This document shows, piece after piece, positions 16,917 through 24,408 of a stretch of DNA of 64,000 nucleotides (its first letter is position 1; every line of letters starts with the position of its first letter). Both the position numbers and the translations under genes were made by a program. The notes below the pieces were generated by a model. The model did not search any database. It saw only the letters and a program-made list of their open reading frames with translations, and was not told the DNA's origin. Origin of the DNA: Tumebacillus algifaecis (GTDB taxonomy: Bacteria; Bacillota; Bacilli; Tumebacillales; Tumebacillaceae); assembly GCF_002243515.1 (NCBI RefSeq), contig NZ_CP022657.1, forward strand, positions 1,727,001-1,791,000, read 5' to 3'.

Positions 16917-16946
16917 TTGTGGCACTTAGTTAAGCTGTGCTACAAT
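16917..16946 (+). promoter_or_regulatory. probable sigma-A promoter of acsA
   Basis: TTGTGG (16917-16922) and TACAAT (16941-16946) are 18 bp apart, about 50 bp upstream of the acsA start. No convincing catabolite-responsive element was found between acuA and acsA. Confidence 0.55.
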
Positions 16947-16997
16947 GTGGAGTGGGTAGAATTTAGAATATTTCGGATACTAAGGAGGCACCGGAGT

Positions 16998-18725
16998 ATG
17001 TCTGACGCGCAAACCAATGAGCTGATTGAAGTGTTGGCGAAAGAATACAATTTGCAGGATTATGAGGAAGCGTACGCGTCGTTCGATTGGCAAGAGGTGG
17101 AGAAGGAATTTAGCTGGTATACGACCGGGAAAGTCAACGCTGCCTATGAAGCGATTGACCGCCATGTCGAGAATGGTCGCGGCGATGACATCGCCTTGTA
17201 TTACAGCGATCCTGTCCGTGATGAGCGTTATACATTTGCAGACTTGAAAGCGTTGTCGAACAAATTTGGCAACGTGTTGAAAAAATATGGTGTGAACAAA
17301 GGGGATCGCGTCTTTATATTCATGCCGCGCTCGCCAGAACTGTATGCGGCACTGCTTGGTGCTGTGAAGATCGGGGCAATTGTTGGCCCGCTGTTTGAAG
17401 CGTTCATGGAAGCGGCGGTCAAAGACCGTCTCGAAGATGCGGAAGCGGTGGCGATCATCACCACGCCGAAGTTGAAAGATCGCGTGCGCGTGCAGGAACT
17501 GCCCGCTTTGAAGCACGTGTTTTTGGTCGGTGCGGAAGGGGAGCAAGCCGATCATGAGATCGATTTTCACCAAGAGATGCAGGAAGCTTCCGATCAGTTG
17601 GAGATCGAGTGGATGGACCGCGAGGATGGACTCGTCCTGCACTATACGTCAGGTTCGACTGGGAAGCCCAAAGGTGTGCTGCATGTACATAATGCGATGA
17701 TTCAGCATTTCCAGACCGCAAAATGGGTGCTCGATCTGAGACGTGGTGACGTGTATTGGTGTACCGCCGACCCTGGCTGGGTCACAGGTACCGCATATGG
17801 CATCTGGGGACCGTGGCTGCACGGCGTGACCAATGTGATTCGCGGTGGGCGCTTTTCGCCTGACGACTGGTACGGTACGCTCCAGCGCTATCAGGTCTCG
17901 GTCTGGTACTCGGCTCCGACCGCGTTTCGCATGTTGATGGGCGCGGGCGATGAGTTGGTGAAAAAATATGACCTGTCTGCTGTCCGCCATATCCTCTCTG
18001 TCGGCGAGCCGCTGAATGCGGAAGTGGTGCGCTGGGGCTTAAAAGTATACGGCAAACGGATTCATGACAACTGGTGGATGACGGAGACGGGCGGCCAGAT
18101 GATCTCCAACTACCCGTCTCTGCCGATGAAACCAGGTTCGATGGGCAAACCGTTCCCAGGCATCTATGCGGCGATCGTCGATGATTCAGGGAACGAGCTG
18201 CCAGCCAACACGATGGGCAACTTGGCGATTCGAGCGCCGTGGCCGTCGATGATGCGTCGAATTTGGAACAACCCGGCGAAATATGAAGAGTATTTCCGCT
18301 TGCAGCCGTGGTATATCTCCGGCGATTCGGCTTATCGGGATGAGGACGGTTACTTTTGGTTCCAAGGCCGCATCGACGATGTGATCAACACATCAGGTGA
18401 GCGCGTCGGGCCGTTTGAAGTCGAATCGAAGCTGGTGGAGCACCCGGCGATCGCCGAAGCGGGCGTGATCGGGAAGCCCGATCCGCTGCGCGGTGAGATC
18501 ATCAAAGCGTTTATCGCACTGCGCGAAGGCTATGAGCCGTCTGAGCAGTTGATCGAAGAGATCCGCGATTTTGTGAAAAAAGGATTGGCTGCACATGCTG
18601 CTCCTCGCGAAATCGAATTCCGTGATAAACTTCCGAAGACTCGCTCCGGCAAGATCATGCGCCGTGTGCTGAAAGCGTGGGAACTGGGCTTGCCTACGGG
18701 CGACCTGTCCACCTTAGAAGATTGA
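16998..18725 (+). CDS. acsA: acetyl-coenzyme A synthetase
   Basis: 575-residue AMP-forming acyl-CoA synthetase that activates acetate with ATP and CoA. Motifs include the P-loop-like LHYTSGSTGKPKGVLH, DNWWMTETGG, the hinge segment FQGRIDDVINTSGERVGP and the C-terminal LPKTRSGKIMRRVLKAW. The lysine of the last motif is catalytic and is the known acetylation target of AcuA-type enzymes. The length and the ending GDLSTLED match the Bacillus AcsA type. The open frame begins upstream, but AAGGAGG nine bases before the ATG at 16998 decides the start. Transcription is divergent from acuABC, so enzyme and regulators share one control region. Confidence 0.95.
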   Translation: MSDAQTNELIEVLAKEYNLQDYEEAYASFDWQEVEKEFSWYTTGKVNAAYEAIDRHVENGRGDDIALYYSDPVRDERYTFADLKALSNKFGNVLKKYGVNKGDRVFIFMPRSPELYAALLGAVKIGAIVGPLFEAFMEAAVKDRLEDAEAVAIITTPKLKDRVRVQELPALKHVFLVGAEGEQADHEIDFHQEMQEASDQLEIEWMDREDGLVLHYTSGSTGKPKGVLHVHNAMIQHFQTAKWVLDLRRGDVYWCTADPGWVTGTAYGIWGPWLHGVTNVIRGGRFSPDDWYGTLQRYQVSVWYSAPTAFRMLMGAGDELVKKYDLSAVRHILSVGEPLNAEVVRWGLKVYGKRIHDNWWMTETGGQMISNYPSLPMKPGSMGKPFPGIYAAIVDDSGNELPANTMGNLAIRAPWPSMMRRIWNNPAKYEEYFRLQPWYISGDSAYRDEDGYFWFQGRIDDVINTSGERVGPFEVESKLVEHPAIAEAGVIGKPDPLRGEIIKAFIALREGYEPSEQLIEEIRDFVKKGLAAHAAPREIEFRDKLPKTRSGKIMRRVLKAWELGLPTGDLSTLED

Positions 18726-19663: not shown

Positions 19664-19918
19664 TTACAGATCGGGGAGTTCGGCGCTTTCGGGATGGGCG
19701 AGCGTGTCGCTAAAGGCTGGATTTTCATCAACATAGCGATTGTTGGTGTGCTGACCAGGTTCCCAAGGGCTGGATTTTCCTAACGGTTGGTCGTTGTAAA
19801 CGGTAGCCCCATATGGACCTTCCGGAAATTCCTCTGGCACCAACGTGTTCTGGATCGATTGCACATACTCCAACTCTTTGTTGCTGCGGAACCAATTGCG
19901 TATGCCTTTCTTTTCCAT
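19664..19918 (-). CDS. small acidic protein of unknown function, divergent from spoVAF
   Basis: 84 residues; family not recognised. The N-terminus is basic (MEKKGIRNWFRSNKELEYVQ). The remainder is hydrophilic and rich in Pro, Glu and Asn (EEFPEGPYGATVYND, SSPWEPGQHTNNRY), with no cysteine, no signal peptide and no membrane helix. The second of two adjacent ATG codons (19918) is chosen, six bases after GGAGGTG. The strong ribosome site, sensible length and head-to-head position with spoVAF support a real gene. The composition would suit a spore-associated or low-complexity soluble protein, but that is inference. Confidence 0.6.
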   Translation of the reverse strand: MEKKGIRNWFRSNKELEYVQSIQNTLVPEEFPEGPYGATVYNDQPLGKSSPWEPGQHTNNRYVDENPAFSDTLAHPESAELPDL

Positions 19919-20022
19919 CATCTGCACCTCCAATTTCGTAATGTAGCATTTCCATGTTTGAACCACTTCATCCAAGGTTCATACTGGCTGGTATTGGAAG
20001 GTTGAAAAAGGAGGTGCGACCT

Positions 20023-21498
20023 GTGCTTGACATAGTCGAAGCTTCACCAAAGCGCGCCGTCAGCGCCGATCTTCAGCAAAATATTGCGATTTTGAACCAA
20101 GAGCTCGGCGTGAAAAAAAGTTTCGATATGCTCTGCCGCGAGTTGGAGTACGGCGGAAAGAAATTTGCTTTGTATTTTGTGGACGGTTTTGCCAAAGACG
20201 ACATCATGAATCGGATCATGGAACATCTGGCCTTGCTCGACAAAGAAATGCTGACCAGCGACACGATCAAAAAACTGCTGGAAACACAGGTCGGTTATCT
20301 CGAAGTTGAAATTGTAGAAGACCTCGAAGCGGTCAAAACGGCCGTCCTGTCAGGTCCGCTCGTCTTTCTGATCGATGGAGAAACCAAAGCGATCTCGATC
20401 GATGCTCGAACCTATCCGGCCCGCGGCCCGGCCGAACCCGATCTGGAGCGTGTCGTGCGCGGCTCCCGCGATGGTTTTGTCGAGACGATGATCTTCAATA
20501 CCTCCTTGACTCGCCGCCGCGTTCGTGACCCTGGTCTGCGCATGGAATATGTTCAGGTCGGCAAGCGTTCGAAAACGGATATCGTCGTCTCCTATATCGA
20601 AGATGTTGCCAATCCTGATCTCGTCACGCTGATCAAAAACAAACTGCAAGAGATCAAGATTGACGGTCTGCCGATGGCCGAAAAAACGGTCGAAGAGCTG
20701 ATGTTCGGGAAGAATTGGAACCCATACCCGATGGTGCGCTATACGGAGCGTCCAGACGTGGCGGCGGTGCACCTTTTGGAAGGCCACGTGCTGATCTATG
20801 TGGACACTTCTCCTAGTGTCATGATCACCCCGACCACTTTTTTCCACCATGTACAACATGCCGAGGAGTTCCGTCAAAAGCCGATCAGCGGCGTCTATGT
20901 GCGCTGGCTGCGCTTTCTGGCCATCCTCTGTTCGATCCTGCTGACCCCGCTGTGGATGGCGTTGGTGATGAACAAATCGTTTATGCCGAGTTTCTTTATG
21001 TTTACGATTCCTGAGAAGAGCCTAGCGATCACGATCTTTTGGCAGATGATGTTTGCCGAAATTGGTCTCGCCCTGTTGCGCATGGCTGCCATCCACACGC
21101 CCAATCCGCTCGGCTCTGCACTCGGGCTGGTCGCCGCATTGATGGTCGGTCAGGTGGCGATTGAGATCGGATTTTTCACAAGAGAAGTGATCCTGTTCAC
21201 CTCGATTGCGGCGATTGGCACGTTTGCCACTCCGAGTTACGAACTGTCGCTCGCCAACCAGCTGGTTCGCCTCGGGCTGCTCGTGCTCACCGGGATCTTC
21301 GGCTTCTACGGGTTTCTGGTGGGCGTGGTGCTCTGGCTGGTTCTGCTCGTGCGAACTAAGTCTTTAGACACGCCTTATTTTTGGCCGCTCCTGCCCTTTA
21401 ATTGGAACGCGCTCGTGCATGTGCTGTTTCGCTCTCCGGTCGAATGGAACAGCAAACGTCCGAAAATATTACATCCGCAGGATGACACTCGCAAATAA
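20023..21498 (+). CDS. spoVAF: stage V sporulation protein AF (GerA-family spore membrane protein)
   Basis: 491 residues. A soluble N-terminal region (1-280) is followed by about five membrane helices (from LRFLAILCSILLTPLWMALVM). It is related to A-subunits of germinant receptors, but the short C-terminus ending LHPQDDTRK and the KSFDMLCRELEYGGKK start fit SpoVAF, which in Bacillus associates with the SpoVA channel and helps germination signalling. The GTG at 20023 lies six bases after AAAGGAGGTG; the open frame upstream is not used. Unusually, no other spoVA genes are adjacent. It stands first in a run with an aminotransferase, an SRPBCC protein and an acyl-ACP-reductase-like gene, 14 bp before the aminotransferase start. 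Confidence 0.85.
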   Translation: MLDIVEASPKRAVSADLQQNIAILNQELGVKKSFDMLCRELEYGGKKFALYFVDGFAKDDIMNRIMEHLALLDKEMLTSDTIKKLLETQVGYLEVEIVEDLEAVKTAVLSGPLVFLIDGETKAISIDARTYPARGPAEPDLERVVRGSRDGFVETMIFNTSLTRRRVRDPGLRMEYVQVGKRSKTDIVVSYIEDVANPDLVTLIKNKLQEIKIDGLPMAEKTVEELMFGKNWNPYPMVRYTERPDVAAVHLLEGHVLIYVDTSPSVMITPTTFFHHVQHAEEFRQKPISGVYVRWLRFLAILCSILLTPLWMALVMNKSFMPSFFMFTIPEKSLAITIFWQMMFAEIGLALLRMAAIHTPNPLGSALGLVAALMVGQVAIEIGFFTREVILFTSIAAIGTFATPSYELSLANQLVRLGLLVLTGIFGFYGFLVGVVLWLVLLVRTKSLDTPYFWPLLPFNWNALVHVLFRSPVEWNSKRPKILHPQDDTRK

Positions 21499-21512: not shown

Positions 21513-22751
21513 ATGAACGATCGTGTGATCGAACAGTACGAACAATTTATCAATCCCGGTCTGGCTCGTCTGCTGCGCGTGATGGGTCTTGCCCATGTGG
21601 AAGATGAGGCGCACGGCTCTCGCGTGCGCACTACGGACGGCACCACCTATATTGACTGTGTCGGTGGGTATGGTACATTTTCCTTTGGGCATCGTAACCA
21701 AAGAATTCTTGAAGCGGTGACCGCACAACTTCATCGCATGCCGCTTGCGAGCAAAGTGCTGCTCTCAAAACCGATGGCCGATCTGGCTGAAAAGTTAGCG
21801 AAGATCACGCCGGGTGATCTGCAGTACAGCTTCTTTTGCAACTCAGGGGCCGAGGCTGTCGAAGCGGCGCTGAAATTGGCACGCCTCGCAACGGGGCGTA
21901 CCAAAATAGTCGCGGCGCTGGGCGGATTTCATGGCAAGACGTTCGGTGCATTGTCCGCTTCGGGCAACGAGATGTACCGTGACCCGTTTCAGCCGCTCCT
22001 CGATGGTTTTTTACACGTGCCGTTTGGCGATGCTGACCTGCTTGGGCAACTGGTCGACCAAGAGACGGCCGCGGTGATCCTGGAGCCGGTGCAAGGGGAA
22101 GCGGGCGTCGTGCTTCCTCCGCCAGGCTATCTCCAGCAGGTGCGGGACGTCTGCGACGCGACAGGTGCCCTTTTGATCGCAGATGAAGTGCAGACCGGCT
22201 TGGGGCGCACTGGGAAACGGTTTGCCGTGCAGCATGAAGGGGTCGTCCCCGACATCCTGTGTTTAGCCAAAGCGCTGGGCGGAGGGGTGATGCCGATCGG
22301 GGCGGTAGTCGCAAGGCCACATCTCTATGCGAAGTACGAATCGGCGCCGCTTTTGCATACCTCCACATTTGGTGGCAATCCGCTTGCTTGTGCGGCGGCG
22401 AATGCGGCGATCGATGTGCTCGTGTCCGACAGATTGGAAGAACAGGCGGCTTGGAAAGGCGAGTTCCTCTTGACCAAGCTACGCAGTTTGCAAGAGCGCT
22501 ATCCGGGCACGATTCAAGAGGTGCGCGGCATCGGCCTTTTGATCGGATTGGAATTTACGTCAGATGCGCTGGGCGGGCTGATTTTGAGCGAAATGATCGG
22601 GGGTGGCGTCCTGACCGCCTTCGCCTTGAACAACTTGAGCGTCACGCGGATCGAGCCTCCGCTGACGATTGAACAGCACGAGCTTGAGCGCGTGGTGAGC
22701 GTATTGGAAGCGGCGTTGCAAGCAGGACAGCAACAGTTGCACATCTCGTAA
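21513..22751 (+). CDS. class III PLP aminotransferase (ornithine/putrescine/4-aminobutyrate type)
   Basis: 412 residues with all class III landmarks: NSGAEAVEAALKLAR (110-124), GGFHGKTFGALSASG, LEPVQGEAGV (190-199), IADEVQTGLGRTG (222-234), the PLP lysine Lys253 in LCLAKALGGGVMPIGA, and HTSTFGGNPLACAAA. It is closest in look to acetylornithine/putrescine/diaminobutyrate-type enzymes that transfer a terminal amino group to or from an aldehyde. GGAGGG precedes the ATG and the gap from spoVAF is 14 bp. The absence of arginine-synthesis genes and the presence of an acyl-ACP-reductase homologue two genes on suggest an aldehyde partner made by that enzyme. Substrate unknown. Confidence 0.85.
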   Translation: MNDRVIEQYEQFINPGLARLLRVMGLAHVEDEAHGSRVRTTDGTTYIDCVGGYGTFSFGHRNQRILEAVTAQLHRMPLASKVLLSKPMADLAEKLAKITPGDLQYSFFCNSGAEAVEAALKLARLATGRTKIVAALGGFHGKTFGALSASGNEMYRDPFQPLLDGFLHVPFGDADLLGQLVDQETAAVILEPVQGEAGVVLPPPGYLQQVRDVCDATGALLIADEVQTGLGRTGKRFAVQHEGVVPDILCLAKALGGGVMPIGAVVARPHLYAKYESAPLLHTSTFGGNPLACAAANAAIDVLVSDRLEEQAAWKGEFLLTKLRSLQERYPGTIQEVRGIGLLIGLEFTSDALGGLILSEMIGGGVLTAFALNNLSVTRIEPPLTIEQHELERVVSVLEAALQAGQQQLHIS

Positions 22752-22768: not shown

Positions 22769-23212
22769 ATGCCAAGTGTGGAAGTGACCGCACTGATCAC
22801 AGGGGATCGGAACCGCGTGTACGGACTGATCTCCGACATGGAATCCTATCCGCGCTTCATGCCTTCGTTGAACCGGTTGGAAGTCGTTGATAAAGGCGAG
22901 GGGTGGACGATGACCTCGTGGGATACATCGATTTCCGGAATGAATTTTCGCTGGTTGGAGCGCGATGAGTTTGATCAAAGCAATTACCGCATCACCTACC
23001 GTCAAGTGACGGGTGATTTGAAGCAGTTCGAAGGTGAATGGCGCGTCGAGGAAGCGGACGGGCAATGCAAAGTGACGCTGACGGTCGATTTTGATTTTGG
23101 CGTACCGATGCTCTCCACGTTGCTCAACCCGGTGGCTTCGCTCAAATTGCGGCAAAATGGGGAAGCGATGCTTCGCGCCATCAAGTCGCGCTGTGAAACG
23201 GGGTTTCACTAA
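22769..23212 (+). CDS. SRPBCC/START-like (Coq10-type) hydrophobic-ligand binding protein
   Basis: 147 residues beginning PSVEVTALITGDRNRVYGLISDMESYPRFMPSL. This is the characteristic first strand and helices of the polyketide cyclase/dehydrase and Coq10/RatA branch of SRPBCC proteins. YRQVTGDLKQFEGEWRVEEADG and a long C-terminal helix complete the helix-grip fold, which forms a deep hydrophobic cavity. There is no signal peptide. It starts 17 bp after the aminotransferase and its stop codon directly abuts the ATG of the next gene, so it is part of the same operon. A role in holding a lipid-like or aldehyde intermediate is inferred only from fold and neighbours. Confidence 0.75.
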   Translation: MPSVEVTALITGDRNRVYGLISDMESYPRFMPSLNRLEVVDKGEGWTMTSWDTSISGMNFRWLERDEFDQSNYRITYRQVTGDLKQFEGEWRVEEADGQCKVTLTVDFDFGVPMLSTLLNPVASLKLRQNGEAMLRAIKSRCETGFH

Positions 23213-24307
23213 ATGGGAAAGTTCGGTTTCGTCATTCACCCTTTTGACACGAGTGATTTAGCGCGCAAGTTTCCGCTGGTCGATCGCATGTCGAGCGAAT
23301 GGGTGGAATCGTTTATGAAACATGCGCCGCCGATCAGCGCTCAGCACATGCAAAACATCGACACCGGGCGCGCGAGTACCGAAGGCTGGCTGGTGGCAAC
23401 CACGCTCACCTCCCGCCAACTGCTCGACCTGCCGTTGCCCTTTGTGCTTCGAAAAATCATCGCCGCCTGCAAAAAGGCGGAGCGTCAAGGGGCGCAGATC
23501 ATCGGCCTTGGCGCGCTGACCGCGGTGGTCGGGGATGCGGGCATCTCGGTGGCACGCCAGCTGTCGATCCCGGTGACAACAGGCAACTCGTATACGGTGG
23601 CCACAGCGATCCAAGCGACCTGCCAAGCTGCCTCGCTGATGGGGATTGATCTTGGCCGTGCCAACCTTTGTGTGGTGGGAGCGACTGGGTCGATCGGCGC
23701 CGTCTGTGCGCGGATGATGGCTGCATCTGTAGGACGTTTGATCTTGTCGGCGCGTGATGAGGAGAAGTTGGAAGACTTGGCCGGATATATTTTTTCAGAA
23801 TCTGCTGTGCTTGCTGACATTCAGACCGATTTGCGCGAGGCGGTGCGGGAAGCGGACATCATCCTCGCCGTCTCTTCAGCGGCGGAAGAGTTGATCCATC
23901 CAGAAGATTTGAAGCCTGGGGCGGTGGTCTGCGATGTGGCGCGTCCTCGCGATGTTTCCAGACGGGTCGCAGTGGAGCGCGACGATGTGCTGGTCATCGA
24001 AGGCGGCCTTGTCGAAGTGCCAGGCGGATGGGGAGGCAAACCGTTTTCGTTCGGCCTTCCGCACGGCATCGTCTACGCCTGCATGGCCGAGACGATGCTG
24101 CTCGCCTTAGAAAATCGCTTTGAGTGCTTCACGCTTGGGCGTACCATTCAGATCGAGCAGGTGCGGGAAATCGATGCGCTCGCTCGCAAGCACGGTTTTC
24201 AACTGGCGGCGTTCCGCTCGTTTGAACGGCTGATCACACCTGACGATGTGTTACAGATCAAACGGCGGGCTGAACAGAAGGTGAAGAAAAAAATCCTTGC
24301 CCCTTAA
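23213..24307 (+). CDS. homologue of cyanobacterial long-chain acyl-ACP reductase (aldehyde-forming)
   Basis: 364 residues with a Rossmann nucleotide site LCVVGATGSIGAVCARMM (152-169) and upstream TTGNSYTVATAIQ. The C-terminal YACMAETMLLALENRFECFTLGR has a cysteine (Cys290) aligning with the nucleophile Cys294 of Synechococcus acyl-ACP reductase, whose neighbourhood (ACFAEAMLLEF) I recall as nearly the same. VIEGGLVEVPG and ARKHGFQLAAF also match that family's layout. Those enzymes reduce acyl-ACP or acyl-CoA with NADPH to fatty aldehyde. Automatic annotation would likely say shikimate/quinate dehydrogenase-like. The ATG abuts the previous stop. A hairpin terminator overlaps the 3' end. Confidence 0.75.
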   Translation: MGKFGFVIHPFDTSDLARKFPLVDRMSSEWVESFMKHAPPISAQHMQNIDTGRASTEGWLVATTLTSRQLLDLPLPFVLRKIIAACKKAERQGAQIIGLGALTAVVGDAGISVARQLSIPVTTGNSYTVATAIQATCQAASLMGIDLGRANLCVVGATGSIGAVCARMMAASVGRLILSARDEEKLEDLAGYIFSESAVLADIQTDLREAVREADIILAVSSAAEELIHPEDLKPGAVVCDVARPRDVSRRVAVERDDVLVIEGGLVEVPGGWGGKPFSFGLPHGIVYACMAETMLLALENRFECFTLGRTIQIEQVREIDALARKHGFQLAAFRSFERLITPDDVLQIKRRAEQKVKKKILAP

Positions 24308-24325
24308 TCGTGGGCAGGGATTTTT
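24288..24325 (+). terminator. terminator at the end of the spoVAF operon
   Basis: AAATCCTTGCCC pairs with GGGCAGGGATTT (one G-T pair), followed by TT. The stop codon of the acyl-ACP-reductase-like gene lies in the loop. Confidence 0.8.
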
Positions 24326-24408
24326 CGTTCGCTGCCAGAAGTGGTATGATGATGTACGACTACATATAGTCAGGTATCAGCAGATTTTGCAAAGATGGGG
24401 GAATCCTC

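Follow-up and report, generated by a model that had tools for sequence, protein, structure and literature searches.

Within a 64,000-nucleotide stretch of the Tumebacillus algifaecis genome (NZ_CP022657.1, positions 1,727,001 to 1,791,000; hereafter the window), three tightly packed genes on the forward strand encode a class III aminotransferase, an SRPBCC protein and, in last position, a reductase, a contiguous arrangement hereafter referred to as the cassette. We consider it probable (roughly 0.6) that reductase and aminotransferase constitute an unfused PigE/TamH-like pair, which would convert an acyl thioester via an aldehyde into an amine; activity, direction, chain length, product and the role of the SRPBCC protein are what we infer from the comparisons below. 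Enzymes of the acyl-ACP reductase (AAR) type are familiar from alkane formation in cyanobacteria and, as components of a small number of fusion proteins, from pigment and alkaloid synthesis. The relevant features are the following:

16917-18725, same strand as the cassette, upstream of it: acetate--CoA ligase (acsA) gene (NF003313, 998.9 bits, cut-off 729)
19954-21498, +: GerA-family spore germination gene (PF03323, 516.4 bits; start codon uncertain)
21513-22751, +: class III PLP aminotransferase, 412 aa, predicted aldehyde transaminase (PF00202, named models, tree)
22769-23212, +: SRPBCC/START-like protein, 147 aa, predicted ligand carrier (PF03364, PDB 2d4r)
23213-24307, +: predicted AAR-fold acyl-thioester reductase (COG5322-like), 364 aa (PigE-half and AcACP_reductase matches, predicted fold)
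23576-23596, +: TTGNSYT block, residues 122-128 (alignment of 132 reductase domains)
23675-23704, +: dinucleotide loop VGATGSIGAV, residues 155-164, corresponding to GATGDIG 162-168 of SeAAR (PMC7089970, in excerpt)
24080-24082, +: codon of Cys290, the nucleophile predicted to accept the acyl chain (opposite SeAAR Cys294 and PigE Cys296 in the alignment)
24290-24327, +: terminator-like hairpin, identified by eye, with a loop of 9 and T bases after it, overlapping the 3' end of the reductase gene

The reading frame 23213-24307 (+) translates to 364 aa, the length given in a sequence-only reading of this DNA, and the opposite strand contains stops in the same register. The reductase was matched once in the genome (a single 4.5-Mb contig), and its nearest relative among those fetched is found in Tumebacillus avium (89% identity). 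The sequence-only reading had proposed homology to AAR, together with a structural superposition and a profile search as checks. The homology is not a matter of chance, as PigE (4ppm, 1.3e-36) and AAR (6jzq, 6.2e-27) were the leading matches in a sequence search against solved structures, and the superposition agreed: the AlphaFold2 model (pLDDT 88.0, pTM 0.87) shows the three-domain fold of AAR, with AAR as best match both in Foldseek (1.8e-25) and in VIA-align (6jzq_B, Z 35.0, 2.7 A, 325 residues, 28% identity). The profile search gave a divided answer: the AAR family model AcACP_reductase (TIGR04058) matched, but only as second NCBIfam match (4.3e-33) and with 115 bits against a cut-off of 449.7, behind the reductase half of PigE (NF053554, 4.6e-65, 220.4 bits). 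The PigE model in turn has a cut-off of 850 bits, above the 220.4 and 399.6 bits obtained from the two separate reading frames.

Placement with shikimate dehydrogenase- or glutamyl-tRNA reductase (GluTR)-like enzymes, which had been named as a possible refutation, is answered in part by profile and fold scores, both of which place the reductase with AAR and PigE rather than with AroE or GluTR. The GluTR model TIGR01035 reached 34 bits over residues 125-253 only (cut-off 209.55), and shikimate dehydrogenase models, whose NCBIfam cut-offs are 200 bits and more, were absent from the best 25 of 63 matches, the lowest of these scoring 19.2 bits. Pfam PF01488 was matched above its threshold (39.9 bits vs 24.3), covering residues 146-254 only. 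In the VIA-align ranking, AAR was followed by the carmabin TAD at about Z 32 and then by Rossmann enzymes, AroE and GluTR chains included, at about Z 14. On these scores we rejected a shikimate dehydrogenase or GluTR reading. Judged from profiles and the predicted model, the window reductase is a protein with the AAR fold but not a cyanobacterial-type AAR.

The attribution to a cyanobacterial family and its alkane chemistry was not supported by this analysis. Besides the TIGR04058 score and the better fit of the PigE half, ADO (TIGR04059), the partner enzyme in the cyanobacterial alkane pathway, was matched in 0/14 genomes of the order (Tumebacillales), the control search finding it in two of 14 named genomes, S. 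elongatus among them; on the ADO and TIGR04058 results we rejected the alkane reading. Nor is such a gene unexpected in a spore former, as had been suggested: a reductase match was present in 73 of 101 genomes of the phylum, and three AAR-transaminase fusions from Thermaerobacter and Thermincola have been characterised (PMC10829540, in excerpt).

The motifs reported earlier were recovered at residues 155-164 and 122-128 and around position 290, where ACMAETMLL surrounds Cys290. As proposed, this cysteine aligns with Cys294 of the Synechococcus enzyme, and also with PigE Cys296; a cysteine occupies the position in 128 of the 132 rows of the reductase-domain alignment, in which T122 and G124 are invariant (132/132) and N125 is nearly so (128/132). 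The four exceptions comprise one gap and three divergent lysS-linked proteins, two with Ser (L182:2800-3816 and L183:3304-4392) and one with Trp (L174:2642-3757), which are possibly decayed or repurposed copies. The genome carrying the Trp variant (G408) also encodes an aminotransferase-reductase fusion.

In SeAAR, the acyl chain is carried on C294, the GATGDIG loop binds NADPH, and R189, R193 and R314 hold the NADPH phosphate (PMC7089970, in excerpt). The latter three align with R181, K185 and R310 of the window reductase, and the 12 cassette rows have R, K or R, and R at these sites in 12/12 cases each. Since these residues are retained, the window reductase is predicted to use NADPH. Fusion reductases (n=16) carry Asn at the first position in 13 cases and are variable at the third, in line with the NADH specificity of the fusion TamH (PMC9594044, in excerpt). 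Two departures from AAR were noted, Y247 being replaced by R244 in the window reductase and M279 having no counterpart.

Concerning the partner genes, the aminotransferase scored 354.7 bits against PF00202 (gathering score 30.5), with Lys253 in AKALGGG as PLP lysine by motif. Its best named models are putrescine aminotransferase, at 500.7 bits for NF008570 (cut-off 612) and 434.3 bits for TIGR03372 (cut-off 658.65) and thus below both cut-offs, followed by the PigE aminotransferase half (399.6 bits). In the tree it groups with SRPBCC-adjacent Clostridia aminotransferases and E. coli PatA, apart from the PigE and fusion domains, so that its substrate may be a diamine. The SRPBCC protein was matched by PF03364 (87.6 bits, gathering score 23.4) and PDB 2d4r (2.1e-17), and its stop codon (23210-23212) abuts the ATG of the reductase at 23213. 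The earlier description of the reductase as lying beside an aminotransferase therefore holds in that the gene is nearby (21513-22751) and fails in that the 147-aa SRPBCC gene (22769-23212) stands between them. The aminotransferase is likely not incidental but the second enzyme of a pair.

Only 14 bases separate the end of the GerA gene from the aminotransferase, and gene and cassette possibly share a transcript. The hairpin at 24290-24327 went unlisted by the automated scan, whose shorter loop limit it exceeds. A sigma-70 scan stayed at chance level (2 found vs 2.9 expected), and a sporulation promoter scan upstream of the GerA gene, with two mismatches allowed, returned scattered matches without a chance estimate; a CATACTG-like element near 19880-20020, upstream of the GerA gene, recurs by eye in several relatives. 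Ten flanking genes were scanned (14.3-31.1 kb), of which acetate--CoA ligase, a PspA/LiaH-like protein, thioredoxin, UvrC, aspartate kinase, MetX and homoserine dehydrogenase were named and three had no NCBIfam match at 1e-20. In one Tumebacillus relative, two adjoining aspartokinase-like frames (L097:2546-5019) occur where the window has one. The acetate--CoA ligase might, in principle, supply the reductase with its acyl-CoA; alternatively, the location of acsA may simply be inherited. A phage or defence origin was discarded: none of the three proteins was matched by PADLOC, and with PHROGs the reductase gave two weak matches to Rossmann proteins.

Nine of the 14 genomes of the order encode the reductase, and the cassette is contiguous in eight of them (the window and seven others), the ninth (G004) having the reductase alone; it is likewise contiguous in all four sampled reductase-bearing genomes of a further family, f25. 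In the class sample, a reductase match at 1e-20 was found in 16 of 398 genomes, namely these nine and four plus three fusions (open frames of 905-921 aa), so that, fusions aside, 12 of the 13 reductase-bearing genomes have the cassette. Every one of these 12 carries acsA on the same strand upstream of the cassette, at a distance of 0.5 to 5.7 kb from the aminotransferase; in f25 it lies within about 0.6 kb of the cassette. This constant linkage suggests one inherited arrangement rather than repeated gain: the cassette is probably a single inheritance whose proteins have since diverged to about 50% identity, and for the same reason we rejected independent gain in the two families. On this account, we weighed both the enzyme-pair reading and the sporulation pathway considered below slightly lower. 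The GerA gene lies between acsA and the aminotransferase in 6/12 cassette genomes (the window and five of the other 11) and is not a constant member of the cassette.

Co-occurrence was counted in a single sample of 101 Bacillota genomes. Matches were found for the reductase in 73, the SRPBCC protein in 12, the window-type aminotransferase (E <= 1e-110) in 15, and c3, a highly conserved 300-aa protein co-inherited with the reductase (L063:5040-5963 and homologues; G000:C1:4439899-4440792), in 78. The 73 reductase genomes divide into 56 with a standalone reductase of normal sequence, 14 with fusions, none with both, and three (G398, G403 and G423) with truncated or divergent reductases only, the latter being counted under 'no canonical reductase' (31 in total). 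Each of the 12 genomes with an SRPBCC match also has a window-type aminotransferase (the SRPBCC type, here called type S), and the two genes adjoin in 11; a transposase-like frame lies between them in G452 (C1:1720835-1725509). A second standalone aminotransferase, type P, was defined by the fusion aminotransferase-domain query at E < 1e-100 and found in 40 genomes, 26 of them checked by tree or best match and fourteen assigned on E-value alone; the cut is narrow, as type S proteins reach 1e-96.

Where the reductase is standalone (56 genomes), type P was found in 37 and type S in 11, no genome having both and eight having neither at the thresholds used, four of these eight being under 90% complete; type P occurs in one of the 14 fusion genomes, and the 31 genomes without canonical reductase have type P in two, type S in one and neither in 28. 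Either type is thus present in 48/56 standalone-reductase genomes vs 3/31 without canonical reductase, with Fisher values for the reductase-aminotransferase association of 1e-15, or 2e-12 when genomes with a fusion are left out, genomes being treated as independent despite shared descent. Stronger arguments than these values are the mutual exclusion of types and the several distinct forms of physical linkage, namely the cassette, the fusions of either domain order and the type P gene directly upstream of the reductase in G472. Similarly, c3 was present in 55/56 standalone, 13/14 fusion and 10/31 other genomes and, within the order, in all nine reductase genomes and 0/5 others. The SRPBCC pair by itself was not significantly associated with the reductase over the 101 genomes (11/12 vs 62/89, p 0.17), the reductase being so common in the sample. 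In two loci, L162 (type S) and L239 (type P), the aminotransferase lies a few genes upstream of a glutamine synthetase gene, with a small frame between that looks similar by eye; the impression is of one type having been exchanged for the other at the same site. Among plasmids, 16 records match the reductase and, of the 15 listed, all 13 annotated carry a class III aminotransferase label.

In Clostridia, the reductase is found elsewhere, typically near lysS. Within 80 loci fetched by relatedness, many of them cut by contig ends, lysS was present in 67, c3 in 61 and the HTH-like c2 in 62, with c3 immediately upstream of the reductase in 60; either aminotransferase type was present in one (Tumebacillus avium) within the DNA retrieved. 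The reductase tree was built from 79 of the 132 rows, after removal of roughly two thirds of those from L003-L081, and has no outgroup root. In it, the cassette sequences group as a clade (98/92) among lysS-linked reductases, and the fusions make up a clade of their own (100/100). As three inspected genomes of the window's order read dusB-c3-greA-lysS at this site, with c3 present and the reductase absent, the reductase has probably moved from the lysS site into the aminotransferase-SRPBCC pair, a direction proposed from an unrooted tree. In two further loci (L169 and L170; G405 and G489), c2, normally beside the lysS-linked reductase, adjoins the aminotransferase-reductase fusion, which suggests that c2 serves the same pathway as these enzymes.

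For c3 and c2, Pfam and NCBIfam gave no informative match except a weak helix-turn-helix in c2, and in a PDB profile search c2 matched mostly helix-turn-helix regulators, with no informative match for c3. The c3 model (pLDDT 87.8) was placed by VIA-align nearest to AAR (Z 14.0, middling according to the tool's note, 4.3 A, 251 residues), followed by TAD (13.2-12.4) and glutamate dehydrogenase (10.4), and Foldseek ranked phosphinothricin dehydrogenase first (2.9e-6) and AAR fifth (8.6e-6, TM 0.48). An AAR-like fold of c3 is therefore likely on the basis of its model, with no sequence kinship detected: profile-profile comparison gave a probability of 0.3% for homology to the reductase, which we dropped, and the conserved residues of c3 are its own. 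By eye, a Cys-to-Asn correspondence seemed apparent, on which we base no claim.

A connection to sporulation is suspected and serves as a lead only. The reductase was matched in 70 of the 87 sampled genomes with spoIVA vs 3/14 without, a distribution that descent could explain, and the SRPBCC pair showed no association with spoIVA (11/87 with vs 1/14 without). Neighbouring genes include, besides the GerA gene of 6/12 cassette genomes, spoIVA adjoining the aminotransferase in G415 and DUF1657 genes flanking type P aminotransferases in three loci; in one locus a Coat_F match fell below its cut-off. The lipids listed for the Tumebacillus type strain are PE, PG and PME, with no aminolipid (PMC11123200, in excerpt), which speaks against a major vegetative aminolipid in the genus. 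We regard it as a tentative and rather doubtful proposition that many endospore-forming Bacillota possess a hitherto unrecognised pathway composed of an AAR-type reductase, c3 and an aminotransferase that comes in three interchangeable forms (fused, type P, or type S together with SRPBCC). Its product would be an alkylamine or aminolipid not described before, acting around sporulation or germination.

According to the enzyme-pair reading, an acyl chain from acyl-ACP or acyl-CoA would be loaded onto Cys290 of the 364-aa reductase, which would reduce the thioester with NADPH and release the aldehyde; the 412-aa class III aminotransferase would then convert it, with glutamate or a similar donor, into a primary amine or an amino-ketone able to cyclise, and the SRPBCC protein would probably bind or shield the acyl, aldehyde or amine species. 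This reading is supported by the PigE reductase half as best family match, PigE and TamH being known to perform both steps (PMC8341465; PMC9594044, in excerpt), and by the predicted AAR fold (Z 35.0), conserved Cys290, NADPH-phosphate residues, contiguity of the cassette and co-occurrence. Against it count the single inherited arrangement, the 8/56 genomes without either aminotransferase, the grouping with PatA and the 1/80 loci with an aminotransferase, as do the R244/M279 differences and two biochemical precedents: PigE performs both steps in cell lysate but no reduction of its thioester was observed with purified protein in vitro (PMC8341465), and TamH, which together with TamA turns a C12 acid into the C12 amine, did not accept C12-CoA (PMC9594044, in excerpt).

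Several of these observations bear on other explanations. The substrate of the reductase might instead be an acyl thioester that is polyketide-like or short and functionalised; the resulting amine might then close to an imine or pyrroline, as in the prodigiosin or koreenceine pathways, giving a small metabolite rather than a fatty amine. PigE does so (PMC8341465) and KecF, a proposed reductase-aminotransferase case in koreenceine synthesis, has been proposed to (PMC6498172, in excerpt), and the PigE match, the two altered residues in the AAR acyl tunnel/cofactor region and the upstream acetate--CoA ligase in 12/12 cassette genomes, which makes a short acyl-CoA possible, all fit; however, no ketosynthase or carrier protein was found among the named flanking genes (14.3-31.1 kb), and a breadth of 73/101 genomes is more like general metabolism, so that we judge this unlikely. 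The kinship of the aminotransferase with putrescine aminotransferase (500.7 bits to NF008570, cut-off 612) and the upstream CoA-ester enzyme gene would also suit a pair running catabolically, in which an amine such as a diamine would be deaminated by the aminotransferase and the aldehyde then oxidised to an acyl thioester by the reductase. This appears improbable, as the characterised reductase relatives in the literature consulted run reductively (PMC8341465; PMC7089970 and PMC9594044, both in excerpt) and the window reductase retains an NADPH-type site.

About equally improbable is that the genes are chance neighbours, the reductase making an aldehyde for another use (alcohol, wax or alkane) and the aminotransferase being an unrelated diamine enzyme. 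Reductase and aminotransferase are indeed unlinked in the Clostridia loci, 8/56 reductase genomes have neither aminotransferase type, and cassette conservation may reflect one inherited event. Yet the cassette is kept in 12/13 reductase-bearing non-fusion genomes of the class sample, both domains are fused in one frame elsewhere, G472 has another aminotransferase type directly upstream of its reductase, and the co-occurrence pattern, the 13 annotated plasmid matches and the absence of ADO (0/14 genomes, in a search that finds S. elongatus) point the same way.

Firmicute AAR-aminotransferase fusions are already known (PMC10829540, in excerpt), and the gene is common in Firmicutes. In the open-licence PMC literature searched, neither the split cassette nor its distribution across Bacillota nor c3 was described, and no function was given for the split pair in spore-forming Bacillota. 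If the enzyme-pair reading is correct, the same chemistry would be widespread in spore-forming Bacillota, its amine product would be new for this group, and stand-alone enzymes, some of them thermophilic, would become available for acid-to-amine synthesis. The co-occurrence pattern predicts that reductase, aminotransferase and c3 contribute to one shared compound.

Compared with known systems, the window reductase has in common with cyanobacterial AAR (TIGR04058, PDB 6jzq/6jzy) the fold, the catalytic cysteine, the dinucleotide loop and the NADPH-phosphate site, but differs by its 26-29% identity, its score below the family cut-off, the Arg in place of Y247 and the missing counterpart of M279. 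The carmabin-pathway 'TAD' (PDB 9e4s, 9e4u, 9e4x, 9e50 and 9e56), known here from the PDB titles, has the same fold (Z 32.1 to 31.4) at 16% identity and, as its numbering suggests, is a domain of a much larger protein. E. coli PatA belongs to the same class III branch as the window aminotransferase, which scores below the putrescine aminotransferase cut-offs. In the fusions PtTamH, PpKTFusion, TmFusion, TsFusion and TfFusion, the aminotransferase precedes the reductase, and acyl release is followed by amine formation (PMC10829540, in excerpt). Both domains of such TamH-type fusions reside in one chain, whereas the window has separate frames, and fusion reductases form a separate clade (100/100) mostly lacking the first NADPH-phosphate residue, which the window reductase keeps. 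PigE of Serratia (prodigiosin MAP biosynthesis; NF053554, PDB 4ppm) shares both domains with the window pair, including the cysteine in a CMAETxxLALEN context. It is a single polypeptide with the reductase first, in contrast to two genes with the aminotransferase first and an additional SRPBCC gene, and its aminotransferase domain belongs to another branch; its reaction sequence, thioester reduction and then transamination (PMC8341465), comprises the same steps that we propose for the window pair.
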